DNA of 64,000 nt, taken from NCBI GenBank assembly GCA_950295325.1, contig OX485804.1, positions 7,936,001 to 8,000,000 of the forward strand, in the 5' to 3' direction. The notes beneath the pieces are model-generated. The model was not told the DNA's origin and ran no database searches. It was given only the letters and a program-made list of their open reading frames with translations. The position numbers were made by a program, and so were the translations under genes. This DNA comes from Polytrichum commune. Lineage: Eukaryota; Streptophyta; Polytrichopsida; Polytrichales; Polytrichaceae. How positions within the stretch are numbered: the stretch's first letter is position 1; each line of letters opens with the position of its first letter. Of this stretch, positions 6,758 through 59,235 are shown in pieces.

Positions 6758-8600
6758 CCGGAACTTCCCCTTTCTGTCGATACGACCTATGAAGCTCTAG
6801 TTCGCAGCTTCTCGGAGCTTCAAGATTGGTGGAGTGGCTGCATGCGAGAGAGCGAGTGAGCGAGAGAGCTAAGCGTAACGCGAGCGGGACGGGGAAGCAG
6901 TGCGAGTCTCCCAGGAAAGCGTGTGGGGGGACGACGGCGATCTAGGAGCGGGCTAGATTTGAGAGTCGTGACGGGGTGATTCTTGGTACCTTACGCTCGG
7001 ACGTGCCACCATGGGACGTTGAGAGCGGTACCCACTCCGTCATATTATTCAATGACCTGAGCTTTAAGACTCCCCATGTCCATGTTACAAGTGCTCACCT
7101 AATCATTGCTTTAGCTCCATGACATAAAGACCACCTGACGACCAAATGCTTCCCAAACACACGATCTTCTATTTATTTCACCGCACATGCCCGCCCGATC
7201 TCTAGTTATTTTTTTATTCCACGACAGAAGCTGCATTTCGTTTGGTTTTTCTTCTACTATTTTGAAAAGCACTAGAATTTGTTTTGCATTGAGGATAACA
7301 ATAACAACCACATCAATGATATGAGTATTATGATCTATGAGTCCAGGTCAATTGTCATGTGTCATTGTTTGGTGACACAGAAAAATATGTAAATTAGTGG
7401 TAGGCCTATCTCTTCTTGAAGTGTATAAGAATCATGCCATGTGTAAGGCTCAAATCATGATGTGAGGTGGTGGTCTAAAACACTCTCCCGACAAGAAATG
7501 ACCATTCGAATCATTGGAGGCAATAAAAGGTTTATAAATAAATAAGAGAATCTTCAATTTGGCTTCTTATAATTAATAAACCCCTTATAGTTCTCAATTT
7601 TGAGTATGGAATTGTAAATGACAATCTTTGTGCACACATGGGCGGAAGAAGGGGGGGGGGTTTCCTAGAGAGCTCACATAGCCTTATGTTTGGTCTACAT
7701 GTGTATCAATTAGGTGTTTTATGGGGGCCTATTATATATATAGATTTAGGAGTTTAAGTGACCTTAATTCTATATGAATTGGTCTTTCAAGCAATTCTTG
7801 AATCCCTACTAGTACTTATGGAGTTCTAGCTATGTGTTTTAATAGCACTTCATGTTATTCATAAAAACCTTAAAGTATATTTACTACATTGTCCAACATG
7901 GACATACACAAAACATAGAAGATATATTACAAATAGAATATATACTACATTCTCACTACAAGAAAGGTCAAGTTCTACACATAGCAGTCACATAGAATAT
8001 TCAACCCTAAGTACGCCTGCATTCCAACCACACATTAAGATACTCCACTGCAAATTGTGGCCAAAGTGTATCCACACATGCCCTGCCAAAATGTTGTATG
8101 TGGTTCATAATAGGCCTGATTTGACCCAAGCATGTGTCCATGTTGGTCGTCATGCACACCTTGTGGCTTCGGGCAAATGTTGAGAGACGATCCAAACTCT
8201 AAAGAAGCTTGTGCGTGAGGAGGTTGCATGTAGCCTAGGTGCCCTTGCGCTTGCAATTGCCTTTGCCGTTGCAATAATTGGTTGGCAACGGCCATGTTGG
8301 CACCTATGGGTGAGATTGCTACACCCTTTGACTCGTCATCCATGAAGGACTTCATGGGAAGGTTCAAGAACATTTCCTTGCCTAATATCCATAATCAAGT
8401 TCATTTCTTTAAAACATCATGTGCACAAAATGAAATATTGACAAGATCCTAGAGCTAAAGACTAGAAGTCACATCGACTTCATTCAAGACAATACATTTC
8501 TTGGTCACGTTTCCTCAAAAGTGTTCTTGTTCAAGATGTCCAGTAGGTTCCCTTAATCAGGGGTAGATTCAGTTGAACTACATCAAGAGTATGTAGCCTG
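6758..8600. other. 5' flank of the glycosyltransferase gene and AT-rich intergenic DNA
   Basis: The first 200 bp beyond the start codon are GA-rich on the transcribed strand and could be 5'UTR. Beyond 7000 I see no gene. A CACTACAAGAAAGG sequence at 7954-7967 looks like a CACTA transposon end, but I found no matching opposite end. Confidence 0.4.
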
Positions 8601-12300: not shown

Positions 12301-12317
12301 GCATCATCACGGAGCCA

Positions 12318-12488
12318 GCTAACACCATATTTGAAATTTTGGGAGATTTCCAGTCTCCCAATTTGATGACAGTTTAGGTGGAGTCGACCTAAAATGTACC
12401 CAGTGGGTACATTTTAGGTCGACTCCACCTAAACTGTATTTTCCCAAAATCATGGAATTTTCCCAAAATTTCGAATATGGTGTTAGCT
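12318..12488. mobile_element. Near-perfect palindromic foldback MITE, 171 bp
   Basis: The outer ends AGCTAACACCATATTTGAAA and its inverse (one mismatch) enclose an inner perfect inverted repeat of about 32 bp per arm, starting CAGTTTAGGTGGAGTCGACC and meeting at about 12400. The whole would fold into one long hairpin. A target duplication is not obvious. Confidence 0.7.
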
Positions 12489-12489
12489 T

Positions 12490-14160
12490 AGTGTCACCAT
12501 TGATCCAAAACATTATAAAATTTATACTCATGCCTATTATTCTCTAAAACCGAATTCGCAAATTTGTCTTCCATATATAACTTGAAAAAATCTCAAACTT
12601 CTTGCGACATGTTTTAGTAGTACAAGAAAAATTAAGGATTGCAGCCACCATTCGTACTTGAAGTCGAACCCATATATCAAGTCCCCCTTAAAACGAAATA
12701 TGACATTAGAACACAATGTAATATGATGTGTTGGAACACAATAAAATATTTAAAAGCAAGTTTTAAATCTTCAAAAATGGCCTTGAAATATTTAGGTTAC
12801 TATATACTTGAATAATGTAGGATAAATATAAAAGAAATATATGGAAATTCTAATTTGAAGGAAAGTAAAAGAAGATTGGTTGGTGAAATGTAGGGATAAG
12901 ACTTTAAATTCATGAGGTTTATGGTTCGATGCTCGGTGATGTTGTTTTGGTTGAAACCCCATTCAATTTGAAAATCAAATGGGAAAAAAACTGGGAACAT
13001 ATATCGGGATCAATCCGGTTACGAGCAAAGGCAGAGGTAAAGGCATCAAAAGACATACATATTTTGCTAAAAAAATCTACTATATAATTTTTTTTTTAAA
13101 ATTGAATAGAAGGAGGACATACTTTGTTTTTTTGCATTCTTCTTAAACTCCGGCTACATCTCCCCTCGAAGCGTGATCAAGTGTTCAACTTCACTGTCCA
13201 ACCAATTTTTCTACTTTTCACCCTTCTTCCACCTTCATCTTTGTGGCTCTCATCTTTGCCGAGGTTTTTTTTTTCTTTTCTACTACATTTCTCTTGTTGT
13301 TTATAAGTTTGGCTTAATGTTCTACAATTTGCACGTCACTTCCTTCATCTATTTCTTTTCCTCCAAAATCTATGTTATCTTTACATGGTTCAAACTCTCG
13401 AATAAAGTTTCTACTTGTTGAAGAAAAATTCAGATTGTAAGATCTTAAAGGCTTTAGTTAAAAATTGAGTTTGATGTTGAAAAAAATTCTTATTATCTAC
13501 GTAATCCTCATCTTGGCTACAAATAAATGGAATATGCGAGTAACTTGTCATCTTGCCAAAAAAAATCTACACACAAATTTTTCACACACGAACCTCCAAC
13601 TTGCTTCTCTAACCAAGCAAGAGAGGGTCGAAAACACTATATTCGTTAAATTGAGACTTTCTCTAGTCTCAAATTAATATATGGATCAAAGAACTTGAAG
13701 AGGCCCGAAACTATATTGTCAACAATCTCAATTATATTATATGTTCTAATATCCCAAATCTATGATGTGCGGACATAAGCACATATGGTAGAGCACTCGA
13801 CACCAACTTCATCAACAAAAACACATTGGGTAGAGCACTCCAAACAAGTTCCACCCAAAAAACATATAAAATGATTTCTATTATTAGCATGCTCAATAGA
13901 ATATAGACATTGCAACATACAAAGTGCATGTAATAAATGCATATTTCTTCATTCGACAATATAGTCCCAAACATAATAATAAGATGAACTTCAATTTTTT
14001 TTTAAATATAGTAAATGGATATTCATCCAACTCCAAACAATATAGTATTCGTAAGTTCTACCCAAACTCTGCCCCAATTTTGAAGAGCACACATATGTGT
14101 AATTTATATTGCTATAATTACGTATTAAACTATAATCATGCTAACACAATCCTACCAACT
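12490..14160. other. AT-rich interval without a recognisable gene
   Basis: Only short non-conserved open frames occur. A GGTAGAGCACTC motif occurs twice near 13788 and 13830. Confidence 0.4.
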
Positions 14161-14162
14161 TC

Positions 14163-17158
14163 TCATTCAACGTGGATTGCTTCTTGTGCGATCCGAGCAA
14201 GGTTGTCTTTTGCAAAAGTTATGTACTTTTGAGGGATGGACATTGATCCACTATGGTTTTTCCGTGGTTTCCATGCTATGAATATGGAATCTGTATCTAC
14301 CCAAGATGGACCGTGCTCAGAATCCACCTTCCACCGAAAGTTAGGGTTTGTATTCCAACCTGTATAATGCCGAATCACATCTTCATTCCTTGCTGTCGGT
14401 CGATAGTACTCCACTTATATTTGTCGAAAATGAGGGCTGGAAGTTACAAAATTGGGTTTGGACAAAGCTCTTGCCACCCACACTGGCTTCGCATATGTCT
14501 CGTCTCCAGGACGTAAAATGAGCATATAACCTTCATGACAATCCACTGCAATGCGGAAAGATGGTGGGGGACGACTACTAGCAGGCCCCACGTAATGGTC
14601 GTCCACATCAAACTCTTCTCGAACCTCTCCATTTCCCAAAAGACTAGGCTCCGAAGCTTGTACATCGACTCGTGTTTGTGGCCAAAATCCATGCCTCAAA
14701 GTATGAGGGCTATCTTGGTGGAGGTCTGCCAAGGCGGCACGAACACGTGTCCAATAATGTATCCAACTCCCATAACGATGCCAACATGATCCGCCAACAT
14801 CCGCTATTTTCAAACTCTCCCAATATTGTATGAAGCCTGATATACCTTTCAAAATATCCTCCAAATTCTTCATGGCTATTGGCTTGCAAGGCCTAGGCTC
14901 CCCATCCGGTAACATGGTCTTTCCATCCGCATCCACGCGCCACACAAGAAGACCCTCCGGCGGGCTCCAGTCTTGTGTCGTGCACAACAACTTGTATTGC
15001 ATGGCCGGGACACCATCGTCACGCATATAAAAGCGGAATTGTTGTGCCTTCGTATGCCCGATCAATCGGTGAGCTCCACTTCGAATATAAGGTTCTATAA
15101 ATGCCTTGAAGTCTGGCACCTCCTCGATCATATGGGGGATGACGGGAATGTTCTCCAAATCCATGTACGATTTCATCAATAACGGGATTGTAGGAAAATC
15201 CTCCTCCCGCAACTTCATGCTCCATCGCCCAAAAGATGCATCAATATCATCGTGCGTGTGGCCTACCAATAGAAAGGACACAAAAACCTCCTTGAAAATG
15301 CCTTTCGCAACTAACAACGATCAATATGTAAATACATATCTACTTTTATTGTCCTTGGCACAATTGTCCAATTGGACACGTAAAGTTGGGGGCAACTTCT
15401 TGGCAATCACGGGTTCACTGGGTGGCTCTGGCAACGAATGTAAGCATACATCTTTTCTATCCAACACCGCTTCATATAGAGGTGTTGAACCCGTGTTCTC
15501 AAATAACAATCCTGAAGAATAGGCTGGCGGTTTCTCTAAATCACGCAAAAGCCTTGCAAATGACCCTATTGTGTGGTTTGAATCCGCTGGATACAAATCA
15601 AGAGCGTAATGAGCAAACTTGACATCACCGTGTCCATGTGCAATCATTCCTGCAATGCCAACCCAACGTGATTAGTATCTATGTATAAATAAACAATTTT
15701 GAATGAATCCATGATCTCTAGTACATCACGTAATGAAACACCACAACATTTAGGGTATGTGATGACATTGTTTCACACTTCACCTGTAACCGATACAGGC
15801 AACTTAAAAAACCCATCCGTGGCCTTGATTCGATTTGCAAAACATGGAGAGGCTGTTTTGGCATGATCCATTTTGTCATGGATGACCGTGAGAACCTCCA
15901 ATGGCCTAGAGATGGACAAAGCTCTATTTGTGTAGTAATCATTACGGTGTGCCTCTTGCATGTTTACGTGTTTGAAATAGTTCAATTGATGTGCCGCATA
16001 TGATTCAGTACCCATCGTGTGTGCATCCCGAAGACGCTTCAACTTTTTGCAATTAGAGCACCGGGCAAATTTGTCCCCTCATCTTTTTGTAATGTATTTA
16101 CTAAAGCTTGTTTTTTTTATTGCACTCAATTTTGACAATGAAATTGGCTCCAACCCAATCTTCTCGCCAACTGCATTCACGTCCAACAATATGTCTTTCC
16201 ATTTTGTGCCTGTGGGAAGAACTTTCTCCACAACCTTTTCACCGGTTGTGAGTGTACGTGTTTTGTGCGGCATTGCATCGGCAAGGGGGATAATGATGGT
16301 TGCTAGAGTGGCCGTTGCTTGTCTTGTTGCTTCCCTAGGTTTCTTTAAACCCACGTTCCCATGGTGACGGGACCGGCGACCTTCCTTGGCATAAGCAGCT
16401 TGTCTATAGAAGTCCGCCTTCGACACACCGTGAATGGTGTACCATGCCTTACAACACACGTCTATGCTTTCCATGGTGATTACCTTGCGATCCGTCCCAT
16501 TCACATGTATCGCCCTATGGACATCAAGTTTTTTTGTGGATCTTAGACGGAAATCTCCAAGCCACATTTCTTCGCGGATGGCCTTCAATTTATCCCTTGG
16601 AAACAATTGGCAACAACGATGCACACAACAGTCCTTTGTGGCAACTTCTCTTATGGACTCCTCCCCGAGCAACCTTTGACGTTTACAATCAGTTGCAGAC
16701 GGAGCAGGACGTGCCAATGTATCGTATTTTCTTTGACCCTTGCGTGGCCGCATGTTTGATTGCAGCTCCTTTTCGATTTGCATGTGTCGATGCTCATGTT
16801 CACGCAAGCTAACTCCATTAATCGTGACATTCCTCAATGGCCACATGCGTAGGGAGAACCTCTGAGTGGGATCCACCTCGGAATGAACGAGCGACTCCAA
16901 TATGACAACCCCAACGTCCTCGGTGCCAAGCGGGTTTTCATCAATGCAATCTTGTGGATGGGTGTTTCGACAAATACCCTCTGCTACAACAACTCCACTG
17001 TCATTAAGAAGTACCACCTCCAAATTCACCCACGAAGTCCTTGAAAGTCCCGTACGTTCACCAATGGGACAGGGGTGTACGGAAGGCGAAGGTAAATCCA
17101 AATGATCTTGGGTCGACCGACCCAAACCTTGTAGGAGGGGCATGGGCTCAGAGTCCAC
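14163..17158 (-). pseudogene. DUF7869-type protein, putative RNase-H-fold transposase; three nonsense codons
   Basis: Reading on the minus strand, one frame stays open for about 2.9 kb apart from a 134-bp intron (15650-15783, GT-AG, exact codon join T-G-M) and three isolated stops: TGA at 16076-16078, TGA at 15318-15320 and TAA at 14412-14414. Order of segments: a Cys/His-rich N-terminal part (CCVHRCCQLFPRDKLKAIRE), a basic linker, CSNCKKLKRLRDAH, IHDKMDHAKTA, VQLDNCAKDNKSRYVF, FLLVGHTHDDIDASFGRWS, and a C-terminal YYRPTARNEDVIRHYTGW. The LDNC and VGHTHDDID blocks are, as I recall, the signature of DUF7869-type proteins; spaced Asp residues (HDKMD, LDN, DDID) fit a DDE-like core, which is inference. 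The apparent N terminus runs into the palindrome array, so the true start is uncertain. It is probably a recently inactivated element gene. Confidence 0.65.
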
Positions 17159-17607
17159 CCTAGTACCTGCAATATGTGGGAAAGGGTTTGGGTCGACCGA
17201 CCCAAACTATATAAGGGGGGATGGGCTTTAGGGTTTAGCCTAGTACTTGCCTACTATGGGGAAGGGTTTGGGTCGACCGACCCAAACCTTGTAGGGGGGG
17301 CATGGGCTCAGAGTCCACCCTAGTACCTGCAATATGTGGGAAAGGGTTTGGGTCGACCGACCCAAACTATCTAAGGGGGATGGAGTTTGAGGTAATCCTA
17401 GTACCTGCCCAATGTGGAGAAAGGTTTGGGTCGAACGACCCAAACTATGTAGGGGGGGATGGGCTCGGAGTCAACCCAAGTACTTTCCCATTGTGGAGAA
17501 GGGTTTGGGTCGACCGACCCAAACTATGTGGGGGGGGGGGGGATGGGCTCTGAGTCAACCCTACTACCTGGCCATTGTGGGGATAGGTTTGGGTCGGGCG
17601 ACCCAAA
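17107..17607. repeat. 80-bp tandem array, seven copies of a 20-bp palindrome
   Basis: Palindromes based on TTTGGGTCGACCGACCCAAA sit at 17107, 17187, 17267, 17347, 17425, 17504 and 17588 (starts), a period of about 80 bp. The 60-bp linkers are also related (ATGGGCTC..GAGT, CCTAGTACCTGC, TGTGGGAAAGGG). The central two bases vary (CC, AC, GG). The array covers the 5' end of the DUF7869 gene. Open frames here reading LGRSTQT or GSxDPN on either strand are translations of the palindrome. Confidence 0.9.
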
Positions 17608-17619
17608 CTGTCCGTAAAA

Positions 17620-18560
17620 TACGCCGTATAATGCGGCGTGAATATGGTGAAATCTAAATATAGTATATGTAGGGAAATAAAAGTCATGGATGAATGTTGT
17701 GATTGCTTGCTCATGAATGCTAGTGTGCTCTAACCTTGTAGTGGAGCTCCAAGTGAGAGAGCTTGCTGCAATTTCTGGAGAGGGAGATGAGCAAAAATGA
17801 CCGACTTTTCGGGGAGGCTGGCCCTTTATACTGTCCGCATCCGCTGCCCTGCTTCCTCTTGGATACCTTTCCCGCTTGATTCCCCTTTAGCCGGTAATTC
17901 AAACCTTCTGACATACTTTCCCGCCTCGTGATTATAATAGAAAATGTGTAGTAAACGTGGCTCTTCGGTGCCCCAACCATCAAGTTATCTGAGTTCACAT
18001 ATATTTTGTATGTAGAATAAATATGTATTGTCACTATTTGAGATATTGTATCCGTTTTTTATTTTTTAAAGTGAATATGACTTGCACCATTGGTAGGAAA
18101 GGTAGTAGCGGCATGTATTTTAATAAGTGCATTAAAGGAAATGTAGATCTGATATAAGATTTAGAAAATAATTCCGAACAACTTCCCTTTGATCCATCTA
18201 AGGAACATAATAAATTATGTTGCAAGATATTACTCTATTTGAACTCAAACATTATAATATATTTTAACAATTATTTTGACAAAAATGTGGCAACATCGTT
18301 TAACTCCATATGGTAAAAGTCACTAAATACAACCGTTAAAGTAGCTAATGAGACCATCAAAAGAGGAAATATATAATATTAACAACAACAAAAAAAACAT
18401 GACATTGTGCAAATGAGAAAAAAACTCTTAAAGCTCACAATATGTCATTTGTAAAGTGTGCACACAACGTTACTCCATTCTCAAGCATGCAACTATGACA
18501 ATGACTAACCTTTGTGGAAGTCATTAATGAAACAAGTTCTTTGTGAAAGTTCATTTAGTT
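17620..18560. other. Interval without a recognisable gene
   Basis: No conserved frame or intact element is seen. Confidence 0.4.
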
Positions 18561-19470
18561 CATTTTTCCAAGGATGTTTGAACCTATCCTCAAATACAAT
18601 TTATTCTTAGCATTGTTTATGAGCAAAACATGCAAAGTTGGGAATGTATGTCCTCATAACATTCACAAAATCAAATGTTCCTTTCATTAGTATATAATGT
18701 GTAATTATTTCAAATAACATATTCACATGATAAAGATCGTATGTACTATAACCTTGTTATTAGTCTCCACGTACTAAGGATGACCTGATTATGACCACTA
18801 TATCACATGTTCGCTTTAGTGAATTTAGACCCTAAACGTTCACACAACCGTATTTCTCATCCTCCAATTAAAATGTGGTCATGACTAAAAAATTTTGTAT
18901 TTAAATTTACAAGCACTAAGGCCCCGTCATTTGACATACGTGCCAATCATTTATGGCTTGTGGTGCAAGAAGTCCCAATTTATTGTTTTTATTTAAGAAA
19001 TTCCAAGCACACATAACACTTTCTACTCCACTCTTCCAAGGATGTTTGAACTTATCCTCAAATCCATTTTATCTTTAGCAGTGTTTGTGACCAAAGCATG
19101 TAAAGTTGGAAATGTATGTCATTATAACATTCACAAAATTATATCACGTACCTTTCATAAGTATATAGTGTTAAATTATTTCAAATAAGATATTAACATG
19201 ATAAAGATTGTATGTACTATAATCTTGTTATTAGAATCCTCATACTAAGGATGACTTGATTGTAACCACTAGATCGTATGTTTGCTTTATTGAATTTTCT
19301 TGTAAACGACCACACAACCATATTCCATGTCCTTGAATTGAAATGTTGTCATAACTAAATACATTTGTAAATAATTTTGCATGCACTGAGGCCTCGTCAT
19401 TTGACCTATGTGCCAATCATTTATGGCTTGTGGTGCAACAAGTCCCAATTTGTTATTCTTATTTGAAAAC
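18560..19470. repeat. 468-bp tandem duplication
   Basis: Two head-to-tail copies begin at the shared TTCCAAGGATGTTTGAAC (18566 and 19034) and remain alignable for about 430 bp, through AAGGATGAC(C/T)TGATT to ATTTATGGCTTGTGGTGCAA and AGTCCCAATTT. Divergence looks like 15-20%. No coding potential. Confidence 0.8.
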
Positions 19471-19495
19471 CCTAAACCCTAAACCCTAAACCCTA
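19466..19495 (+). repeat. Interstitial telomere-type repeat
   Basis: Four consecutive copies of AAACCCT, the standard plant telomere unit (TTTAGGG on the other strand), lie at the end of the 468-bp duplication. A looser TTTAGGG-rich patch occurs at 20220-20310. Confidence 0.85.
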
Positions 19496-19499
19496 GTAT

Positions 19500-20540
19500 A
19501 TGTGTAACGACCATTGACCAACAAAGTGATTGCTTCAATGGCTTCATATGATGTTGAACTCCAAGGGGGTGCAGGGGTTACAATTTTAATCGTTATGCTT
19601 CTCTTGTTTACTTTAAATGACAACTTCCATATAAATATATTCATGTTCCATGATATAAATCAAACAACCGATTTTTTCTTTTTGACAAAAAACTATGATA
19701 AGGTATGAATACAATTAGCGTAATTGCATATTAGAATAATTGACAATACATAAACTTGTATAATTGCATTAGTGTAAAGCTACTTTTAAGTGATCTATGA
19801 TAGGCTACAGCCTTGTCCTCCAGCATTAAGCATCACATAAATAAAAATACGTATTCATATTATCAAACCATACAAATGGTACCATACTAATAGTATTAAA
19901 CCGTGTAATTGCCTTTGAGCATTTGTGATTCCATATGTCTACACATGTCAAATTATAAAGCACGTAATGGATTAATTTCAATTTAAGCAATCCCAATCAA
20001 GGACAATCTAATTCAATACATTAAAACTGGAGTTGGGAAAGATGATCAACACAGATGACAAAGATGAATGTGAAATAAATTGTGTTACTTAATATCTAAA
20101 GTCGGTAAACAACTTAGGAGCCTATAAGTTCAAATACTTTGGAAAATTGAAAATTATGTGAAAACCTTAGGATATGTACCTGTTTCGGAACAAATTAAAT
20201 GCCGCCAAAGGTCGGGTGGTAAGGGTTTAGGGATTACAGCTGCCCCGTGAACCTATTTGCGTGGGTTTAGGGTTTCAAGGGGTGCCCTAAAGCCGGGGTT
20301 TAGGGCCTTTTCCTGAGGGGAACAAAACCCGAAAGGTTGCCCTACCCGGGTCTTTTTACCTCTTCACCTAAAGTGAGCTCCGCGCCGCTCTTGGAAGCGC
20401 CGCCTCCACGAAGTGACGCGTTCCCTCCATTCTCTTCCTCCCTCCATTCTCTTGGTAGAGCATGTAGATTCCACATTCTGGTCTTCTATCGTGCGAGTAT
20501 AGATGCTATAGGTTATTGTCTGATTCTTCTTCTTGGTTTA
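19500..20540. other. Interval without a recognisable gene
   Basis: Apart from the TTTAGGG-rich patch near 20220-20310 I see nothing supportable. Confidence 0.35.
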
Positions 20541-20559
20541 TTCGTAATAGTATTGATAC

Positions 20560-20880
20560 TTTGTACGTTTCAGAGTGTGGAGGGTTTAAGGATTCAGAGT
20601 GTGAAGTGTTTAGGAGCTTTAGAATGTTCATAGCGTGAAGGAGTGAGCTTTACAGTGTTGAAGGTTGTGAAGTTTAGAGTGTGGAGTTTAGAGTGTTGAA
20701 GTTTAGCATTTACATTGTTGACGCTTGAAGGAATTAGATTCAGAGTGTTGAGGGTTTAAGAGCTTTATAGTGTTGAGTGCTGAGGGTTTATTATCAGATT
20801 GGTGATAGCTTGAAGGATTAGATTCAGAGTTTTGAGGGTTGTGAGTTTGTGAAATTCGGAGTGTTGAGGGTTTAGGGTCT
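20560..20880. repeat. Degenerate GAGTGTTGAGGGTTTA minisatellite
   Basis: Variants of GAGTGTTGAGGGTTTA, GAGTGTGAAG and GATTCAGAGTGTTGAGG recur about ten times. The open frames across this stretch are artefacts of the repeat. Confidence 0.6.
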
Positions 20881-21281
20881 TCAAATCTTATTACCTTTAC
20901 ACACAGAGTGTTGCGACATTGAAAGTTTTGTTCATTTCGTCTGTAGAGCTGTCTAAGGTTCAACAGAGTTTCCAGTATTTGTGAGATTAGAGCACAACTG
21001 CTTCTCAGATTCGAATTATACTTATAGTTTGCAAGAAAAGCTTCTTCTAAAGCTTCCAAGAACAGGTAACGTTTTTGGTGTATAAGTTTGTTTTTCTTAT
21101 ACTTATCCCAAACATTCTATTCTAAGCATTCTATCACATGTATTATATAATAAGCATTTTATAACAAGCATTTCATAATAAGCAATGAATCATTAGCGAT
21201 CGTAAATTGAAACAACAAGAATTAGTTGAGAATACATATTATTCACAACTAATCTTTATTGTTTCAATGTACGAAAACTGG

Positions 21282-21461
21282 TTTGGGTCGAGCGACCCAA
21301 ACTCAACAGCTGGTTTGGGTCGAGCGACCCAAACACAAAAGCTGGTTTGGGTCGAGCGACCCAAACCCAACAGCTGGTTTGGGTCGAGCGACCCAAACAC
21401 AAAAGCTGGTTTGGGTCGAGCGACCCAAACACAACAGCTGGTTTGGGTCGAGCGACCCAAA
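21282..21461. repeat. 32-bp tandem array, six copies of the 20-bp palindrome
   Basis: Perfect TTTGGGTCGAGCGACCCAAA palindromes start at 21282, 21314, 21346, 21378, 21410 and 21442, exactly 32 bp apart. They are joined by 12-bp linkers ending AGCTGG that alternate between CAACAGCTGG and CAAAAGCTGG. The array lies 370 bp upstream of the first recognisable exon of the ParB/MTase-like gene. Two weaker singles follow at 21693 and 21786. Confidence 0.95.
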
Positions 21462-23170
21462 CCATGGCAAAACATATTCATATCGTTCCAATAAAATAAA
21501 ATCTCATGAAACAAATTTATTATACAGATCTATTTTGGGATGTACACTTATATCTAAAAAATATGAAAGTTGCCAAAAAACAAAGCACTAATAATTATTT
21601 GACCTACTATCTCAAAATTCGTATTGCACGATCGAGCTAATTTCATACAGCAGATAATTGTTGCCAATTATCAAACCCACTACTAGCTTGTGTTTGGGTC
21701 GATCTACCCAAACCTGCCAATTCGTGACCTCAACATATATGACATCAGTCATTCCCGTCTACATGCTAATATACATTAGTAATAGTTTGGGTCGAACGAC
21801 CGAAACTAACAGCGTTGTGGTTTTCTTGCAGATGGCCCCCAAAAAAAGACCTGGAGAGAGATGGTTCATGCTCGCACCAGATGTGGTTTGGCAGGAACAC
21901 GAAACACCTGAAGATGAATCTTATGTACCTAAGGATGGGCTGGTGATTGCATGGTCTCTCGAAGTGGTGAAGGCATCTCAATTCAAGATCCTCTTTGTGG
22001 TGAAAGTTGGGACAGTGGATCAAAACACATGGGCAACTTTGATGGGGTGGGAGGTGGCGTCAGTACAGGCTCTAGGTGACTACGTGGACGTCATACTCGA
22101 GAATTCTGCAATGCAGAATGCGCACATGTTCATGCATCAATTCTCCGAGGCATTTGACCCCATGTACATAAAAGAAACTTGCATTGAGCCAGAGGTTATT
22201 AAACCAGAGTCTATCTTCATAGATGGAAGCATTTCAAACACAAAGGTGGCATCCAGGTTTACAAAGCTTAAGCAAGTAATCAACGCATTAAACAAGGCTC
22301 AACAGAGCAAGTCAAAATCACAACATCCGGTGAGGAGGAAGGCCACAACAGAAGAAAGCGCGGGCTCGTCGAGACCTCAAACAGTGAGGAAGCTGCGGGC
22401 GGTTCCGGCTGATTCAAGAAGAACCACGCCTACGGCAACACCAGCGGATAGTGAGACACCCACGCCATCAAACAGCCGTCAGACAACTCCTTCAAAGAGG
22501 CAAAGAGAATCGGCATCAGTTATGACGGACGAGCCAGTTTCCCCAGAACTGCGCATGCCAAAGCCCGGACAAGAAGTGGATGCGTCTGAGATCCAAAGAA
22601 TCGTGAACAATTTCACGACCAAGTGTTCTCACTGTTTCTTCATGGGTAGGGACTTCAAATTTGACATCAATATTGCTCAGTGTCACCTAGCCCCACCAGA
22701 AAAGTGTGTTCGGGCAAAGGAAGATGCCTACGTCGATTGGATAATCGCCCAGATAGTGAGCGAGCAATTCAAAGACGATAGGCAAACTATTGTAGTCATG
22801 CCCCAGGGACACAAAAAAATGCCCACTCCGGATATGTGGCCGTCAATTCAAAAAGACGATTTTTGGTTAATTGACAGACAACACAGCGTAGAAGCGTCGA
22901 AGAAAATCCAACTCATGGCCGAGTGGGATGATCCCAATAACCAAAAAGATAAATTGAAGGTGTGGAAGGCCTTGGTGGTGTGGTCAGATGACGAAACCAG
23001 ACTCAGTGACATCTCCCGCTACTTCAATATGGGGAACAAGAAACGGGCATACCAAGCTTCGTGGATTCGCAATATCATGGCCTCACGCGAGGTGTAGGAG
23101 TTCTACGGCAGGCCTCCCAAGGAGAGGGAGAATACGAAGGACAAGAATCCAAAGTGGGAGGTGAGTGTGG

Positions 23171-23268
23171 TTTGGGTCGATCGACCCAAACGCTTGTTTT
23201 GTTTCATAGTTTGGGTCGACCAACCCAAACTCTTGTTTTGTTTCATAGTTTGGGTCGATCGACCATAA
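23171..23268. repeat. Three intronic palindromes, 39-bp period
   Basis: Copies start at 23171 (perfect, centre AT), 23210 (one mismatch) and 23249 (decayed right arm), separated by a CTTGTTTTGTTTCATAG linker. They lie in the intron between the ParB-like and MTase-like exons. Confidence 0.9.
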
Positions 23269-24723
23269 CCCTTGTAAGAGTTAATATTCAAGCTTTTTCA
23301 TCTAAGCAAATGTCCAACTAACATATACATATCTAACATAAATTTCTATGTTTATGTGCAGTATTTCAAGTACCAAATGATCAATAAGTTCTCCTCCATT
23401 GACAATGCGAGTCACAAGCAAAAGAAATATAACGAGTTGCGAGGAGAAATTTATTTGATAACAACATCCGACCATGTCTGGTCGAAGTGGAAGAACGTGT
23501 TCGAGAAGCACGAGACGGGGGACCTGATGGATCCCGACACATGCCTGCTTTTCAACTCGACCGCACGTTTCAAGCAGCTCAAGCCTTTGATGAGATAATT
23601 CTTTCGAACACTCCAAGGGCTTTCGGAGACAGACATGGGGAAGGCGGCCACGCACATCCTGCACGTCGAGCCCACGGCAAAGAGATGTTGGACGCACCCA
23701 AAGATAGTCTTCTCCAAGCCTAAATCATTCGTTCCTTTATGCTACACCATGAAGGAATGGACGGAGAATAATAAGAAGAAGAACACCATCGTCCAAGAGT
23801 TGTACAAGATAGTCCCCGAAATGAACCTTTTTGTGGATGGCGAGGTCCACGACGCAAACTGGAAAGCATTCAAGGCGGAGTACAAGTTCACAAGTGCATC
23901 TATGGCGGCTCTCATCAGAGAAGCGGGGGAAGACTTCCTGCGGTCCAAACTGGTGAAAGGTGGGAATAATCGGGCACTTCCCGATCACACAACGCGTGTC
24001 TTCTCGAATTTCATAAAGGAGAAGAAAATTGTCAGTTTTGAGGGGGACGCGCATTTCAACCTTGTCACCCTAGAGCCTCTAAAAATCCAGGGATGGCCTA
24101 GCGTTGAGGCTCGCAAGGCGATAAGGACGAATGCTGGGGATCGATTCCCCTTTGGGATGATAGACTTCAGGAACATTCCTGGAAGTTCGTTTGAGGGTAC
24201 TATGAGCACCCCCTTCTATGAGCCCTTCCTATCAAAGTTCGTCGACTATGCAAGTCCCAAATTTAGGGAGGTCGACATTTGGTTGTGGATAGTCGAGGAT
24301 AGGAGGGCGGAGCAAGTATATGAGATTGCGAGGAAATTGCAATCTGATTATGCTGTCTCTAAATCTCATTACATTGCTGCACCGGCGGAGGGGTCTTACT
24401 CGACGTTGAAGGACAAAAAAACAAAGCTTGTCGACGTATTGTGTTTGTACTTTGTATACAAAGCGAACTTGTTGAAGGTCGACAACCACCCCATAAACCA
24501 TATGGAAAAACTCTTCCAAGTACCAGAGGGGTTGGGTGCAAGCAAGAGCCTCTACGACGAGGCCAAGTACGCGAACTATACTGCCGACGAGCTGCGGATG
24601 GAGTTCTACTTACGGATAATGAGGGCCTTGACAAGAAGAGGGGATTCTATTTTCAACGTCTTCGGGGGTTCCAAACCTATCTATTCTGGCATGGTAAGTA
24701 ACTTCAAAATAGTTGGTTTATAG

Positions 24724-24815
24724 TTTGGGTCGAGCGGCCCAAACTTGCCACAGTGAAGGTTTGGGTCGAGCGACCCAAACTTGCCACAGTGATGGTTTGG
24801 GTCGAGCGACCCAAA
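24724..24815. repeat. Three intronic palindromes, 36-bp period
   Basis: Copies start at 24724, 24760 and 24796, separated by CTTGCCACAGTGA(A/T)GG, in the intron that splits the putative SAM-binding motif of the MTase-like region. Confidence 0.9.
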
Positions 24816-26027
24816 CCTTTTGTATTGGTTTTCTCTTATTGTTTTTTTTTCTTGTTCTTGGTGTAATTTAATGAGCATATCTCTGATCCAAGTTGTTTTT
24901 TGAATGTCCAGATGTTGGGTTTGAAGATGTACTCCTATATAGAGGACAATGATCTTCAATTTTACAAAACCCAAAAAGTCCTAGCCAAGAAGATGGACAT
25001 CCTCGATTGGATCCCGGGGAGCTACATGGAGGAGATTGTAGAGGGGGGTGAAACCCGATGGATATGGCAAGGCGTGTCAACCCTGCAGAATTTGCCACGA
25101 GTGCTCCAGTTGGAGCACCCGAACCACTCGTAGGATTGCATCCGGGTACCTCATCTCGGGGGCCAGGTGACGAGGTGGAGGAGGAGGAAGAAGAAGAGGA
25201 ACAAGAGGACCATAAGGCGGAAGGGGAGGTAGAAGAAGGAGCAACGGGCTACACGCAAGAATCAGAAGCCCCCCCAACGGAAGAAAGCTATGCGGGTGGC
25301 AACCCCGCAAAGCAAGTTGGTGCCCGTCCTCACGGTGGACGATGCTAGAGACATGTACTCCAGGGACGCGACAACAACGTTCAGGGAGAGGAGGAAGTTG
25401 AGAGGGAAGAAGCTCTACAACGACTACGCAAGGGAGGAGACCATCGCCATAAGCAGCGAGGACGAGGACGATATGGAGCTCGCCAAACGGCTCAGATCGG
25501 ATCCCCCCTCCCCGACATCGTTCACAGGCATGGTTAGGGTGAAACCAGAAGTCCTGACTGTGGAGGAGGCGAACGAGAAGATGCGGAGGGACGAGGAGCA
25601 GCGAGTCCGCATGCAGAAGGTTGCCGCAGAAGAACCCTCAATGCCGAACGAGGTAGCAGAGTTGAGGGCTCTCCTATTGGAGCAGGAGCGACAAAGGGCG
25701 ATGGCCCAACCTCCATCCAGCGCCGACCTGATATCGCAGGTCATTCAAGGAATGTGGGCGCAAGGATTGGTGGTGGCTCCCTCGAGCGCCTTTCCGCACT
25801 TGCCCGCCGGCTTCCCTGCCCAGAGCATTCCTCAACAGTCTGTGCCGCAAGCGTCATTCAGTTTCCAATACATGATGCGGCCACACAATGTCCCCTACGC
25901 CCCGGTCCAGCAAGTGGACGATCCCAACATCTGGCGTGTCTCTGGAGCCTCCTCCCCTTTGGGGCCTCCACCACTTCGGCCCCCCATAGTGATAGCTCCC
26001 CCTCACCAGCATGACGACCCCCGAATG

Positions 26028-26116
26028 TTTGGGTCGGATGACCCAAACACCCCCCCTTGTGTAGTGCCACAAGGGAACTACCCCGATGCAAGACAGTTTG
26101 GGTCGGGTGACCCAAA
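26028..26116 (+). repeat. Two palindromes inside an exon, translated in frame
   Basis: Variants with centres GGAT and GGGT lie at 26028-26047 and 26097-26116 within the long open frame of exon 3. They are translated as FGSDDPN and FGSGDPN without breaking the frame. Confidence 0.85.
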
Positions 26117-26418
26117 CCTTGGTGCAGGACAGTCGTCCCTTGACCAACATGGGTGTGAAAAAGACACAACCATGTTAGATGTTGAAGGCCTGCAAGGGCC
26201 TGGTGATACCTCTACTCCTAACCAAGTCGATGAACCCATGCATGATGCACATGCGGAGATTGGTTTAGGACAAGGGCCTGATCCTGAACCTTTGCAGGAG
26301 AAGGTTGCTGATGTCGTTGAAGAAGGCGCTGGAGAGAGAGGAGGGGCAGCGTAGACGATGGAGCCCTCCACGGCATCGAGACATGACCAGGGCGAGGTAA
26401 TACACTGAGACCTCTCAG

Positions 26419-26438
26419 TTTGGGTCGATCGACCCAAA
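26419..26438. repeat. Single perfect palindrome in an intron
   Basis: TTTGGGTCGATCGACCCAAA lies 22 bp inside the putative intron joining the MTase-like and HAD-like parts. Confidence 0.9.
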
Positions 26439-26883
26439 CCTCCTGGGTCATTGTCTTGTTGGCGTGGTCTTGTCCCCCTAGCTAGGAGGAACTGCACCCC
26501 GGCCTTCCGATGCCCATATGTCCAATACCTGCGCCCCTTCAGTGCCCCCCTTCGCGATCATTTCGTCACCCTGCACTCGACTACGCTCGATATTGCGTGG
26601 CGCTTACAGGCAATTTTGTAGATGCACAGTTAGGATAGTGTGAATGGCTAGTTCACCGTGGTTCATCCCCCATCAAATTGTACATAGAGATTTGTAAAAA
26701 TAAAATTATTATTTTTGGCGCCCATATGTTTGCATCCGTGTCCCAATGTATGTTGTTCCCCTTGTATGTTTTTGTTGCCACCAATGGTCCAATTCTTCTT
26801 GTGTTTGCACAAAATTTCCGTTCTGCTTGAGATGGACATAGCATAACATAGTCCTCGCCGCCTTCTCTCGCTCGTCGCCGCAG

Positions 26884-28595
26884 GGTTCGGAGCATAGCGT
26901 CGCGGCTCCCCACCGATCCTCCCCGAGGAGTGTGGAGGACAGCGTGCTGGTCCCCCCGATTTTGCCCTCGCCACCTTCGCCTCCCAAGACCCGGTTCTTG
27001 GTGCTAGACCTCAACGGGGTCCTTGTCTAGTGCGTGCATTGTCCGAGGGTCCCAACGGTCCCTTTCTGCAAGCCCGAGGACGCCAACTACAATGGTCCCC
27101 CCGCGTACATCAAAAGCAAGCTAGTGTACCTCCGCCCGTGGCTTCGGCGCTTCCTGCAGGTCGCCCTATCCAAATGGTGGGTGATCGTGTGGAGCTCCAT
27201 GAAGTCCGAGAACACCCATGCGGTCGTGGAGTTCATCTTCAAGGGGCTCCAACCCCCGTGCTTGAGCCTAGGACAGGATTCTTGTAAAACATTATACACC
27301 TCCGACGGCAGGGTTGTGAAAAAACCCAACAACCCCACAGTAAATCAATTTCTTAAGGTCTTGAAACCAATCGTATGGGACCAGCATCCCAACATGGTCG
27401 GCTGTCCCTACGACGTTCGCCCCACCCGTGACAACACGTTGATGGTGGACGACAACGCTTCCAAGAACATTTTGAACCCGACCTCGAACTTCATAGTTTG
27501 CCCGATGTGGACGGTCGAGAAGGTCCGAGACCGCTTTTTGTTAGACCTACTTAAGTACATTCAAACGCTCGTGGGGAGCGGACTACCCGTGCCCCGGTTC
27601 CTTAGTTGTAATCCGATAGGCGAAAGATACATGGATCCGAAGGACTATATGTACAGAGAGTTGTACGCTCACGCGAAATATAATAAATTCATTTGAGATA
27701 CTACATGGTGTGTCATTGTGTGTGATATATTATGCCTCAATTGTATATCGATTTTCACATGCTCCCCCCTTCCCCCCCTCCCCTTGGGTTTTGTTTGTTT
27801 TAATTTTGCCATCAGCGTTTGGAGCCCTCGATTGAGATCGTCAACGAATCAAACTTGGGGAGCTTCTTCTACGAGACCGTCTACGATGCCGCGTCCACCA
27901 TCGACTACTCCAAGGAGCCTATTGACGCCGGTGTCGTCGATAGCCCCCCACCCAAGCAAATCTTCCGGCAATCTCCGTCCCCGTCGCCGCTCAAGGGCAT
28001 AAATCGCAAATGCGTCCGGACATCCTTCTCTCGGCCCGGCGGCAGTAGTACACCTCAACGGCGGCTGCGGATGGACGCTCGGCCTACGAAGAGTGGCACC
28101 CTTCCTATTCCTTTGCGGGACGCATTGCCCCTCCTCGCCAACTCCAACGGGAACGCCCCCGGTGACAAGGTGAACTCCCCCCCCCCCCCCCCACAAACAT
28201 GGTTAACCGCGCATTACAATCATCCGGCACTTAAAAAATGAACGTGTGACACGTTTGGGTCTTCCTCCCTAAACTAACACGTGTGTTCTTGCATTCACGC
28301 GTTGCAGGTTGGTCCCACCCGTAAACCTATGCGGGCTAGTACGTCCGTCGAGTTGGAGCGTTTCTACTCCATGACCAGAAATACAAGACAGTCCACTTCA
28401 TCGTATTCGAATTCTTCGTCGTATAATTCGGGCGGCCGACGGAATCCAAAATTAGTTATTGATGGCGGTCACCCCAAGAATGGCTATAGTCGCGGGGCGG
28501 AGATTTTCAAGAATGTTGAAGCAATGCGAGCAAAAGAAGCCACAGCAAAAGAAAAAGAGGCAAAAGAAAAAGAGGCACTCTCCGAGGCTAGATAG
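26884..28595 (+). pseudogene. FCP1/NIF-like HAD-domain protein, probably the 3' part of the same gene
   Basis: Exons 26884-about 27717, 27816-28169 and 28308-28595 are again joined by phase-0 introns. After a Pro/Ser-rich stretch come TRFLVLDLNGVLV (HAD motif I, with Asn where the second Asp is usual; DLNG is common in plant relatives), KLVYLRPWLRRFL, WWVIVWSSMKSENTH (motif II region) and NTLMVDDNASKNILNP (motif III, VDD). The order fits the FCP1/NLI-interacting phosphatase family. A TAG stop (27028-27030) falls directly after motif I, and TGA 27694 ends the domain exon, although the frame continues to usable donors (for example ATT|GTGTGT). The last exons encode SPSPSP, SGGRRNPKLV and a Lys/Glu-Ala tail (AKEKEAKEKEALSEAR). 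An in-phase splice from 26396 to 26884 would fuse it to the ParB/MTase-like part. Confidence 0.55.
28254..28273. repeat. Degenerate palindrome in the last intron
   Basis: TTTGGGTCTTCCTCCCTAAA keeps the outer six bases of each arm only, inside the intron 28170-28307. Confidence 0.5.
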
Positions 28596-28734
28596 GCCAT
28601 AGTAGGCGTAGGGTTTTGGGCCATAGGCAAGAACATTTTGGGTCGCACTATCCAATGGATGTGTGGTGTTAGCATGCTATGCATTTTACATGCCATACTT
28701 TGTATGTTTTATTTGCAATAATATAAGTGTCACA

Positions 28735-28990
28735 TGATTTCCCCTTCCATATGGTCTAAGGTTTGGAATGCCCTACCTAAACCATCACAAATATGAGTTT
28801 GGAATATTTTGTATGCAATATTATATTGATTAACATATTAACCCTTCAATAAGATCTATGGTTTGGATTGCCCTACCTAAACCATATTCATACAAGCTCT
28901 AATATTTTGTGTGCAATAATATGAATGTTTTAAGGTTTCCCCTTCAATTTGGTCTAAGGTTTGGGTTGCCCACCCTAAACCATCACAAAT
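28735..28990. repeat. Three-unit tandem repeat with palindrome-like core
   Basis: Three units of about 90 bp share (C/T)CCCTTC(C/A)AT..GGTCTA(A/T)GG, then GGTTTGGaaTGCCC(T/A)ACC and CTAAACCAT, then an AATATTTTGT(A/G)TGCAATA block. The core is a relaxed relative in layout of the 20-bp palindrome (GTTTGG..CC..TAAAC). It lies directly downstream of the HAD-like exons. Confidence 0.65.
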
Positions 28991-29253
28991 ATGAGTTATA
29001 TATGGGGTTCTTGGTCTAAACACCCGCTTCAAAGTGTTCGCATCTTACAACTTTCTCCAATATGTGTTCCATTTATCCTTGTTCTTATTTATGTGAATGT
29101 CTCAAAATGCCCAAAAAGTCTCAATTTAACGAATATAGTGTTCGAAGTGAAAGAGGAAGAACCAGCCACCTCAGTAGGTTTTGAATACAACAAGCTTTCA
29201 ATCTAACAATTCAAAATTTTCTAAGATTTTTAATTTTTTAATTTTTTCTAATT

Positions 29254-31431: not shown

Positions 31432-32602
31432 GGCAGACGATATGCTACCCCCTACGAGCTTTTCGGGGGGGGAATATTCTGTCAGGGGGCAGCCCCCGAC
31501 ATTTTTCTTGCACCCGCCCGAAAACTGCTGCCCGCCCGCCCGATTTCGAAAAAACTAGTGTACTTGCATTTTTGAAGCCTACTTGTCCACAAATCCCATA
31601 TTGAGTGCACTTCATTTTCAAGGTCTCAAATCCAATATATAAGTTCACTTCCATTGAGTAAATAAGCAATTGACTAGATTTCATTTTCAAAGTGAAACCG
31701 TCAATAAAGCATGTAATTAACTTGGAAGTCAAAAATATTACAAAATCCTCATTACCGCTGAGGTTATAATTTTTGTCGCTTACAATTGAAGGGGACTTTG
31801 TCATTCTAAAATGAAACTAAATTTTATTTTTTTATTTTTTAATAATTTATAATATATTTAATACCTTCTACTATCACAAAGTTTTCATATGCATTTAAAC
31901 TAGTTAAGTAAGATTGAATGCAACTAAGTCTAATAATTTTTTATTAATCCTAATTATAGAAACACAAAAGGACACTGTATAGGGTGTAGTACACGGCTTT
32001 GGACATCGAGGAACACATAAGCACTGTGAAGAACATGGATGTTATTCATCGTCCTTCATCGTTTTTCATGTGTCCTTCATCGTCGCGAATATGTTAGACT
32101 TAGTTGCATTCAATCTTACTTAACTAGTTTAAATGCATATGAAAACTTTGTGATAGTAGAAGGTATTAACTATATTATAAATTATTAAAAAATAAAAAAA
32201 CAAATCATAAATTTTAGTTTCATTTTAGAATGACAAAGTCCCCTTCAATTGTAAGCGACAAAAATTATAACCTCAGCGGTAATGAGGATTTTGTAATATT
32301 TTTGACTTCCAAGTTAATTACATGCTTTATTGACGGTTTCACTTTGAAAATGAAATCTAGTCAATTGCTTATTTACTCAATGGAAGTGAACTTATATATT
32401 GGATTTGAGACCTTGAAAATGAAGTGCACTCAATATGGGATTTGTGGACAAGTAGCCTTCAAAAATGCAAGTACACTAGTTTTTTCGAAATCGGGCGGGC
32501 GGGCAGCAGTTTTCGGGCGGGTGCAAGAAAAATGTCGGGGGCTGCCCCCTGACAGAATATTCCCCCCCCGAAAAGCTCGTAGGGGGTAGCATATCGTCTG
32601 CC
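31432..32602. mobile_element. Mutator-type foldback element, 1,171 bp, 9-bp target duplication
   Basis: Two inverted arms of about 500 bp (31432-31940 and 32090-32602), nearly identical, flank a loop of about 150 bp. The outer ends read GGCAGACGATATGCTACCCC and its inverse. The identical nonamer GTCCTGTTT flanks both sides (31423-31431 and 32603-32611). Long terminal inverted repeats with a 9-bp duplication are the hallmark of non-autonomous Mutator-like elements. No transposase is encoded. The matching open frames on both arms are translations of the repeat. It ends 211 bp from the stop codon of the EXORDIUM-like gene. Confidence 0.92.
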
Positions 32603-32813: not shown

Positions 32814-34851
32814 TTATGCGGAGGTGTAGGTCATGTAGAAGCCGGTGGCATCCGGGAAGGGGCTCTTGCCCCCGTAGCTAGTCCATTTCACAGTGGTATT
32901 GTTGCCCACAAGCTGCACCAACACCTTGGCGATCATCGATCCTTTAATCGTCTGCTTCAGCACTGTGCCTTGGAACACGTCGATGTGGTCGAGCTGATCA
33001 AAGCCGGTGGCGACGGAGTTGAAAGTGAGGGTCAAATTCTTGGCTTTGGGGACAGCAATGGCGTACAGGCAGCTCTCCCCAGGGGCGTAGGTCTGCAATG
33101 CGATGTTGCTTACATGCGCTCCTCGTTCCACCACTCCTGTCTTCGCCGTCAATGTCTGTGTTCCGCTGCACGAGGCTGCACGATACATTCACCACGCCAA
33201 TCAGCCACAAAGTAATTCACTACACCATCACCACTGCAATGCATTATGCAGTCGAAGTATTCATGTGATATCCTCTAGTCCAGCTTATCTAACATTGCAA
33301 CACTTCACAATGGGTCTAACCCCAGCCGCCTGGACCCTATTGACACTGATTAAACCTTCATCTGAAACAAACAAATACGAGATGATCAGAATTTGTGTAA
33401 TAGTATTATCTATGCATGTGCAGATGGTTCAGCGAACGCACGCGCATATTGTAGCTGACAGCCCTTGTTCGCCAAGCTCCATGTCATCTGCACCAGGAAC
33501 TTGGCGCCATTGATACCGAAAATGTTGAAAATCTCGCCAGTGGAAGTCCATCTCAGTACATGGTAACCTGGATAAGATTGGCACACAGCTGGGTCGGTGC
33601 CGCCGTGGTAAGTCCCGTAGATGCTGGCCAGGCCACAGTAGTAGTAATCTCCTCCACCGTACGAATATGCACACAAGTCTCCTGCCTCGGAGTTCTCTTT
33701 GTAGTTTTGTCTCCACGCGTTGATGTAGGGATCAGTGGCAGCCTCCATGATCTCGTGCATCATGGTGCTGATGTAGGAATCCAAAGCTCCGCCGACGGGG
33801 GAAGCAACATCATTTGGCGCAGGCAGAGGAAGCGGACCGTAGGGATCATACACGCAGCAGCCGTTGAGAAGGCTGTTTTCGGTGTCGTCGCCGGGAAAGG
33901 GCATGAAGGTGTAGAGCAGAATGTTGTTGATGTTGGAGCAGAATGAGGAGTTGGGAGCTTGGTTGCCATCGGTGCACATTAGGTCATGGTATCCACAGAA
34001 GCCGCCTTGTTGGAAGGTCACGTCGGCGCTGGTCATGAGCATGTAAATCCCGCTCACCGGATCCACGGGAAGGCCGCCCGTGGGTTTAAGGTTGTGGCGG
34101 ATGATGGTTTCTGCCACCTGGCCGAGAGAGCTTCCCGCGGAGTAGTTGTCATCCACTTCCGACCCAATGGTTACGTTGTTGCTCACATGGAGGCCTCCAG
34201 CTTTCTGAGTGTACTGGGTCGCAATTTTCCACCAGTTGGCGAAGTTGGGATAGCTTGCGATTGGTTTCGCAGGAGTCAGCGATTGCACGGCTGTTCGAAT
34301 GACTGCCTTCATTGCAGGATCCCACGTCCCGTACCTGACTCACACAACATAATACATAGATCAGACGCTGTTTATAAATTCTGGAATAATTTCCCAATTG
34401 AACTAAAAGTGCCACTGATCGCACATGAATCCATCAACTCACTTAATCCATTCTCAAAGACATCAGACACAATGGTACTATGAGTTGGGTTATCATGATG
34501 AGCAGAGGGCATGCATGCATACCAGATGAAGTGAATGCGAATCGGCTTGTTCATGACGAGTCCTCCGAGGTAGTTCAGGTTGACCACCGGGGGCCTCCAT
34601 GGAGTGGTCGGACCACCGGTGGGTGTGCCTTTCACGAGCACCGCCTTGGCGCCTTTGGTAGTCTTGGCACCAGGAAGCTCGGTCACTTGCGGAGACGATC
34701 TGCCTCGTGGAACTAAGTATTTGGGTGCCACTGTGGGAGGGATGACGGCGGACACAGGATCAGCTGCCAAGCTCACGTGCAACAGCACAGCGAGAGCCAC
34801 TGCCACAACCGTGCTCAAGAGGAAGCTTCCAGACCTCCCGGATGCCCCCAT
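32814..34851 (-). CDS. EXORDIUM-like (phosphate-induced protein 1 family) secreted protein
   Basis: Three exons: 34523-34851, 33442-34334 and 32814-33175, giving 527 residues. Codon joins are exact: HFIW|YGTWDPAMKA across intron 1 and LQYA-P-SCSGTQ across intron 2 (donor GCGC|GTGCGT). Residues 1-30 form a signal peptide (LLSTVVAVALAVLLHVSLA). The family core follows: NYLGGLVMNKPIRIHFIWYG, VSGIYMLMTSADVTFQQGGF, FCGYHDLMC, MMHEIMEAATDPY, then LCAYSYGGGDYYYCG and FLVQMTWSLANKGC. EXORDIUM proteins act in the apoplast in cell expansion and nutrient or brassinosteroid responses. The HEIMEAATDP block equals the HExxxxxTDP segment of the family. The last 120 residues (SCSGTQTLTAK to the end) are an extra beta-rich domain, CUB-like by eye, that short EXO proteins lack. 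It appears intact. Confidence 0.82.
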
Positions 34852-58900: not shown

Positions 58901-59235
58901 CCTTTATGTCTCACTCCTTGTGCTACAATGTGTTTGTTTCGAACATTATCCAGGACTAGGCATTTCCTGTTGGTAAACACGATTACATGACCTTTGTCTG
59001 CTAACGAACCCACAGAAACTAGATTGTGTTTCAGAGAAGGCACATACATAACGTTGGTCATCTTTATTTCTCCGCAATCTGATTTGACATTTACATCACC
59101 ACTACCACCTACTGCATGACGTTCTCCGTCTGCAGTTGTTACAGTTTTTCTTCCTATAGGTGAAGTCACTGAATCAAGATGATTCCTCTCACCCGTGACA
59201 TGACAAGATGCTCCCACAACAAGAAAACCAGCCCA
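55939..59235 (-). pseudogene. Truncated Ty1/copia polyprotein
   Basis: Minus-strand frames in order encode a protease remnant and GAG-pre-integrase zinc region (LWHKRYGHLHYKG, CAECLAGRQH), an integrase core with TDDYSQKSWTYF and LRTDRGGEFLS (57829-59217), a reverse transcriptase in two frames (WQKAIASEIDSIKRNQTWEV at 57323-57535; MDVKTTFLN, LYGLKQAPRAWN and LLYVDDLILAG at 56551-57186) and RNase H (FADSDYGGCKDTRRSTSG, ALSTTEAEYRVL at 55939-56523). The order PR-IN-RT-RH is copia. The protease motif reads LVVGASCHVTG, lacking the catalytic Asp-Ser-Gly. At least three frame or stop breaks occur; gag, both LTRs and a polypurine tract were not found. The 5' limit coincides with the start of the TGACT-motif cluster. 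Confidence 0.88.

Follow-up and report, generated by a model that had tools for sequence, protein, structure and literature searches.

To our knowledge, few transposons tag themselves with a repeated short sequence that is read by a protein of their own. For VANC of Arabidopsis, two published accounts describe short, tandemly repeated motifs with an enrichment in non-coding DNA of the element, upstream of VANA and within introns of VANB and VANC; related copies differ through gain and loss of these repeats, and methylation is lost on binding (PMC5735166, PMC10398659). Here, a 64,000-nucleotide stretch of the moss Polytrichum commune (assembly GCA_950295325.1, contig OX485804.1, positions 7,936,001 to 8,000,000; hereafter the window) was found to contain a DNA transposon that carries 24 copies of a palindrome between its ends. 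By analogy with VANC, the palindrome may be an internal recognition tag, i.e., a site for a dimeric, element-encoded regulator that sustains expression of the element's genes, and we give this reading about an even chance.

Copies were counted by a direct scan of the window at no more than two mismatches to the 20-mer TTTGGGTCGNNCGACCCAAA. In total, 24 copies were found, all within 17,107-26,438: 16 exact, seven with one mismatch, and one with two. This agrees with the original prediction, a first reading of the same DNA, which had counted about 24. Allowing three mismatches added a single copy, at 28,637; at that threshold the chance expectation was a mean of 0.03 and at most one copy (100 dinucleotide shuffles of the window). 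As predicted, the remaining 48 kb of the window held no copy at two mismatches or fewer, but the predicted interval (17,107-28,273) did not stand at its right limit, where the copy at 28,254 had four mismatches to the 20-mer while retaining its outer half-sites (GTTTGGGT-CTTCCT-CCCTAAAC). The palindrome-bearing region is naturally delimited by the two ends of the transposon, at 13,633 and 29,142. Viral and prokaryote sequence collections contained almost no palindrome, a result of little weight given what these collections cover.

The conserved unit was 22 bp, not 20 bp: GTTTGGGTCG-RN-CGACCCAAAC (written in full as a search string, GTTTGGGTCGNNCGACCCAAAC), with a preceding G in 23 of the 24 copies and a trailing C in all 24. 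A 9-bp inverted repeat around a variable 2-bp centre had been proposed; the second centre base was indeed free, but the first was a purine in every copy (A in 21, G in three). Perfect inverted repeats of arm 9 and spacer 2, the sole geometry scanned, numbered 16 across the window, and every one was a member of the palindrome family. The half-site GTTTGGGT occurred 52 times on both strands of the window and 47 of these occurrences were in the transposon; it was rarely alone there, as 46 of the 47 belonged to palindromes, diverged ones counted. Spacing within groups was 78-84, 32, 39, 36, and 69 bp, confirming that the tandem periods differ.

Because all 24 palindromes fall between its inverted-repeat ends, the region is a single DNA transposon of 15,510 bp (13,633-29,142). 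The terminal inverted repeats were 28 bp and 100% complementary (left sequence AACACTATATTCGTTAAATTGAGACTTT), and a 4-bp target-site duplication, CGAA, of provisional length as it comes from a single copy of the element, flanked both ends:

13629-13632, left CGAA target-site duplication (from the sequence)
13633-13660, plus strand, left 28-bp terminal inverted repeat, 100% complementary to 29115-29142
29115-29142, minus strand, right 28-bp terminal inverted repeat (inverted-repeat search)
29143-29146, right CGAA target-site duplication (from the sequence)

With these inverted repeats, this duplication and the RNase H fold predicted for its transposase, the element is probably a cut-and-paste DNA transposon with a DDE transposase. 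Three genes were placed in it, namely a DUF7869 gene, gene 2, and a NIF/FCP1-type phosphatase-like gene (gene 3). The original prediction had spoken of two transposon-like genes, rightly, and both can now be assigned to one transposon with identified ends:

14184-17107, minus strand, DUF7869 gene, predicted DDE-type transposase (Pfam PF25273; tblastn with relatives P0004 and P0006; fold of relative P0010)
17609-21277, AT-rich intergenic region between the divergent genes
21832-26405, plus strand, gene 2 (exons about 21832-23160, 23362-24693, and 24912-26405)
27031-28592, plus strand, gene 3, NIF/FCP1-type HAD phosphatase-like (Pfam PF03031)

The DUF7869 gene and gene 2 diverge from the AT-rich centre, which has arrays A and B of the palindrome on its borders. 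The AT-rich centre also contains a unit of about 430 bp duplicated at 83% identity (18566-18994 and 19034-19464).

The 24 copies were distributed as follows: seven in array A, six in array B, two singly before the gene 2 ATG, three in intron 1, three in intron 2, two in an exon, and one just 3' of gene 2. Altogether, 22 of the 24 were non-coding under gene models with GT/AG splice sites read by eye, a reading that relatives support for introns 1 and 2 of gene 2. The positions of these copies and of the diverged ones were:

17106-17608, array A, seven palindromes at 78-84 bp spacing, 5' end of the transposase gene
21281-21462, array B, six palindromes at 32 bp spacing, upstream of the gene 2 ATG
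21692-21713, one palindrome before the gene 2 ATG
21785-21806, one palindrome before the gene 2 ATG
23170-23269, array C, three palindromes at 39 bp spacing, beginning nine bases into gene 2 intron 1
24723-24816, array D, three palindromes at 36 bp spacing, gene 2 intron 2
26027-26117, exonic pair of palindromes at 69 bp spacing, in the part of gene 2 that encodes the proline-rich tail
26418-26439, single palindrome, just 3' of gene 2 and before gene 3
28253-28274, diverged palindrome between gene 3 frames, probably in an intron
28707-28991, subterminal 98-bp repeats on the right, each holding a diverged, GTTTGGRTTGCCCNACCTAAAC-like palindrome

The predicted placement at gene 5' ends and in introns was borne out, but there were two exonic copies in place of the one predicted. 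These two (26,028 and 26,097) share a reading frame and encode FGSDDPN and FGSGDPN. Array B possibly lies inside an intron of the 5' untranslated region (21066-21831; GT/AG by eye alone). The diverged palindromes of the 98-bp repeats, at 28,761, 28,861, and 28,959, mostly retained their outer half-sites; the background of the diverged-site search was 0.17 sites per window at no more than two mismatches (Markov sequences, 12 samples).

Gene 2 had three relatives at E <= 0.001 (P0001-P0003; 69-74% identical), drawn from 5,162 word-sharing candidates in a database of 5.8 billion proteins. By tblastn, gene 2 was 73-76% identical to them up to 24.7 kb and 54% identical in the last exon. The gene calls of the relatives read through introns, so the palindrome is visible there as a translated signature, which in its three reading frames is VWVxRPK, FGSxDPN, or LGRxTQT. 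Three signatures lay in intron 1 of P0001 and two more in its intron 2; P0002 had a single one, in intron 1; P0003 had two, in intron 2, plus a further one in exon 4 (the last coding exon, in a count that includes a presumed 5' leader exon). Opposite the exonic palindromes P0003 has FGTSSSN, a decayed second signature, and FGSTDPN. In total, nine intact signatures were found across all three relatives and none in the other 80 fetched proteins, against an expectation of 0.001 per three shuffled proteins. Their locations (intron 1, intron 2, and exon 4) are those seen here, while copy numbers and spacings differ; only the distance from the exon end to the first intron 1 signature of P0001 is as here. 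This comparison indicates that the palindrome predates the present transposon copy and that its arrays turn over.

The DUF7869 gene matched Pfam PF25273 (E 2.6e-22 and 1.6e-13), and the predicted fold of the relative P0010 points to a DDE-type transposase, an RNase H fold placing the acidic motifs HDKMD, Q[ML]DN, and GHTH[DE]D[IV]D at catalytic positions. The DDE transposases and integrases (Mos1, Metnase, retroviral integrase, TnsB, IstA) have an RNase H fold and acidic motifs like those predicted for DUF7869, whose two ends, unlike theirs, carry extra barrel-like stretches; by sequence, DUF7869 gave no match to solved transposases. The transposase frame of this copy is interrupted by stops at 16079, 15321, and 14415; gene 2 carries two in-frame stops and also changes frame near 25.1-25.3 kb, a stretch in which its relatives are open. 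This copy is a relic, and intact members of its family exist. Similarity of the DUF7869 gene to P0006 (88-90%; 88% over 465 residues) ends at 17107, which is the first palindrome. The first 47 residues of P0006 had no tblastn match at E < 1 in the whole window, and within 17.0-21.3 kb just short matches at E >= 360. Either array A sits on a rearrangement at 17107, or the first exon has been lost or is too diverged to detect.

Two readings of the palindrome had been offered at the outset, a dimeric protein site and a spreading hairpin-type element. The dimeric site was the better supported, by the fixed arm spacing and the free second centre base. It was also favoured because nearly all half-sites in the transposon were palindromic and because arms were more conserved than linkers in array A, where 2 of 20 arm columns were variable compared with 37 of 62 linker columns (p 8e-5, six units); both variable arm columns trace to the first copy of the array. 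A dimeric reader of the element is suggested by the fixed-spacing palindrome with its free centre, by arms that seldom occur apart, by the element-specific density, and by arrays in regulatory places. Such a protein, most likely encoded by the element, would bind GTTTGGGTCG-RN-CGACCCAAAC. The gene 2 protein would be the first candidate, because its gene is the richest in sites and its relatives carry them too. Sites would be maintained where the transposase gene and gene 2 begin and in the introns and tail of gene 2, and local tandem duplication would multiply them. Bound protein would then crowd the regulatory DNA of the element, keeping its genes on despite host silencing. Dimer binding, the identity of the binder, and activation or anti-silencing are steps that we infer.

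Several observations weigh against an element-encoded dimer. The predicted conservation of the palindrome over its linkers held for array A but not significantly for the smaller arrays taken alone: array B pointed in the same direction (0 of 20 arm and 2 of 10 linker columns variable; p 0.1, five units), and arrays C and D showed no excess (two units each; p 0.71 and 0.66). The eight variant copies had changes in the right arm in seven cases, in the left arm in one, and in both arms in none. This bias (p 0.07 overall; 7/7 and p 0.016 on the gene 2 side) and the constant purine at the first centre base are not what a symmetric dimer would predict. No DNA-binding domain was recognised in the gene 2 protein, and its AlphaFold model was unusable (mean predicted local distance difference test score 31). 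The site in the relatives was deduced from amino acids, not from DNA letters, and the element copy is broken, so conservation cannot reflect current selection on its own proteins. Lastly, the palindrome here is strict, whereas arrayed VANC21 motifs share one orientation.

Among the alternatives, binding by the DUF7869 transposase itself is unlikely yet survives best; the palindromes would then serve assembly of the transposition complex or repression of its own promoter, like plant subterminal motifs. Against this, the strong copies lie well inside the element, with 3.5 kb between them and its left end and 2.7 kb on the right, and their density peaks in and around gene 2, while the left 3.4 kb of the transposon contains one GTTTGGGT half-site (14060) and a palindrome only with five mismatches (13825). 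A dimeric host transcription factor, recruited to drive the element genes, is a more doubtful candidate. Sites at gene 5' ends and in introns are in enhancer-like positions, and the arm ACCCAAAC resembles plant AC-type elements; by motif likeness the factor might be of, e.g., MYB or AP2/ERF type. Host promoters should then carry the site, but none appeared at two mismatches or fewer in the other 48 kb, and a strict 20-bp palindrome is long for a host factor.

Action as RNA, with the palindrome forming a 9-bp hairpin for splicing control, RNA export, or pairing among copies, is very unlikely. All four sequences tested did form a hairpin with 9 bp in the stem and four bases in the loop (-13.2 kcal/mol; z -3.6 to -4.6). 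The predicted test for compensatory arm changes was negative, however, in all eight variant copies, and five of the eight lose a pair on the plus strand even when G-U is allowed (four of seven on the gene 2 side; read by hand). Array A is moreover on the opposite strand, and exact arm letters are kept beyond what mere pairing requires.

The hairpin-type spreading element of the original prediction, a tiny self-spreading insertion that chanced on the transposon, is highly improbable. Several separate loci with unrelated linkers, and the end of DUF7869 similarity to a close relative at the first palindrome, would fit such an insertion. However, the window holds no copy at two mismatches or fewer outside the transposon, abutting direct repeats measured 0-2 bp at most at all nine loci, no variant was compensated, and the intron and exon locations are common to the relatives. 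A self-mobile palindromic element or miniature inverted-repeat transposable element was rejected on the lack of dispersal outside the transposon in the window and of flanking duplications over 2 bp. Functionless, neutral tandem duplication of an old sequence is the least probable explanation: arrays C and D have similar arm and linker identity and array B shows no significant difference, but array A has its arm excess, and one 22-mer recurs at several loci with unrelated linkers and persists in relatives at 69-74% protein identity.

Gene 3 matched Pfam PF03031 over its cut-off (E 3.8e-10; the match covers the frame 27031-27693) and TIGR02251 under its curated cut-off (E 5.7e-6). Frames to the right of 27693 were joined to it by inference. 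For gene 3, a VLDLNGVLV stretch at 27001-27027, read by eye, departs from the usual DxD motif.

Elsewhere in the window, a fold-back element at 31432-32602 had a 426-bp inverted repeat (97%) and an inner 111-bp pair (98%), with a third copy at about 1439-1872 (91%). A small fold-back element (12317-12488) had a perfect 34-bp hairpin within 36-bp inverted ends (92%). Additionally, the window contained minus-strand remains of a Copia-type retrotransposon with integrase and RVT_2 domains at 56554-59241, repeated units of about 234 bp at 41370-42268 (76-79% identity), and flanking frames of ordinary kind: a glycosyltransferase (5132-6796) and a phosphate-induced (Phi_1) protein (33413-34339).

Other known systems were also compared with the transposon. 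CACTA/EnSpm elements have ends beginning CACTA, a 3-bp duplication, and TnpA sites. The moss transposon is similar in that its inverted repeats contain CACTA, a second gene lies beside the transposase, and diverged palindromes occur in the right subterminal repeats. It differs in that its strong sites are internal, and no CACTA-type transposase domain was matched in Pfam within the element, DUF7869 being found instead; membership was rejected on this transposase, the AACACTA ends, and the 4-bp CGAA duplication. ParB-parS is similar in that a gene is accompanied by repeats of a palindromic site, and the short IDGQHS stretch in the gene 2 relatives is reminiscent of ParB, but here the setting is a eukaryotic transposon. 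Searches of Pfam, NCBIfam, PHROGs, and PDB sequences gave no credible match for gene 2, and the first three gave none to a ParB profile; no ParA partner was apparent among the frames scanned, in which no dedicated search was made. The ParB/MTase-like label given to gene 2 in the original prediction could not be confirmed.

A broader proposal is that a non-Mutator DDE element of mosses uses the palindrome to tag itself, and that a gene 2 dimer, possibly a ParB-like clamp, loads at the copies, spreads over the element, and keeps host methylation off, as a second, independent origin of sequence-specific anti-silencing among transposons. We consider it improbable.

If the transposon does mark itself with a repeat read by its own protein, self-recognition against silencing would have arisen more than once. 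The example would come from an early land-plant lineage, and its transposase family is still a domain of unknown function in Pfam. A 22-bp site of such specificity is also a potential handle for chromatin targeting in moss.

VANDAL is a Mutator-like element. According to the two accounts cited above, the VANDAL/VANC system shares with the moss transposon a DNA transposon with helper genes, a short motif dense in its own element alone (assessed here against the rest of the window and the viral and prokaryote collections), and tandem motif arrays upstream of the transposase gene and in introns. The same accounts give the VANDAL motif as the 9-bp YAGTATTAY in one orientation, compared with a 22-bp palindrome here. 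The transposase matched here was DUF7869 alone, with no Mutator type, and neither Pfam nor NCBIfam offered a credible family for gene 2 or its relatives, which were not compared with VANC directly. Since transposase family, motif, and helper gene differ, the transposon is not classed as a VANDAL element; by analogy, it may work like the VANC system.

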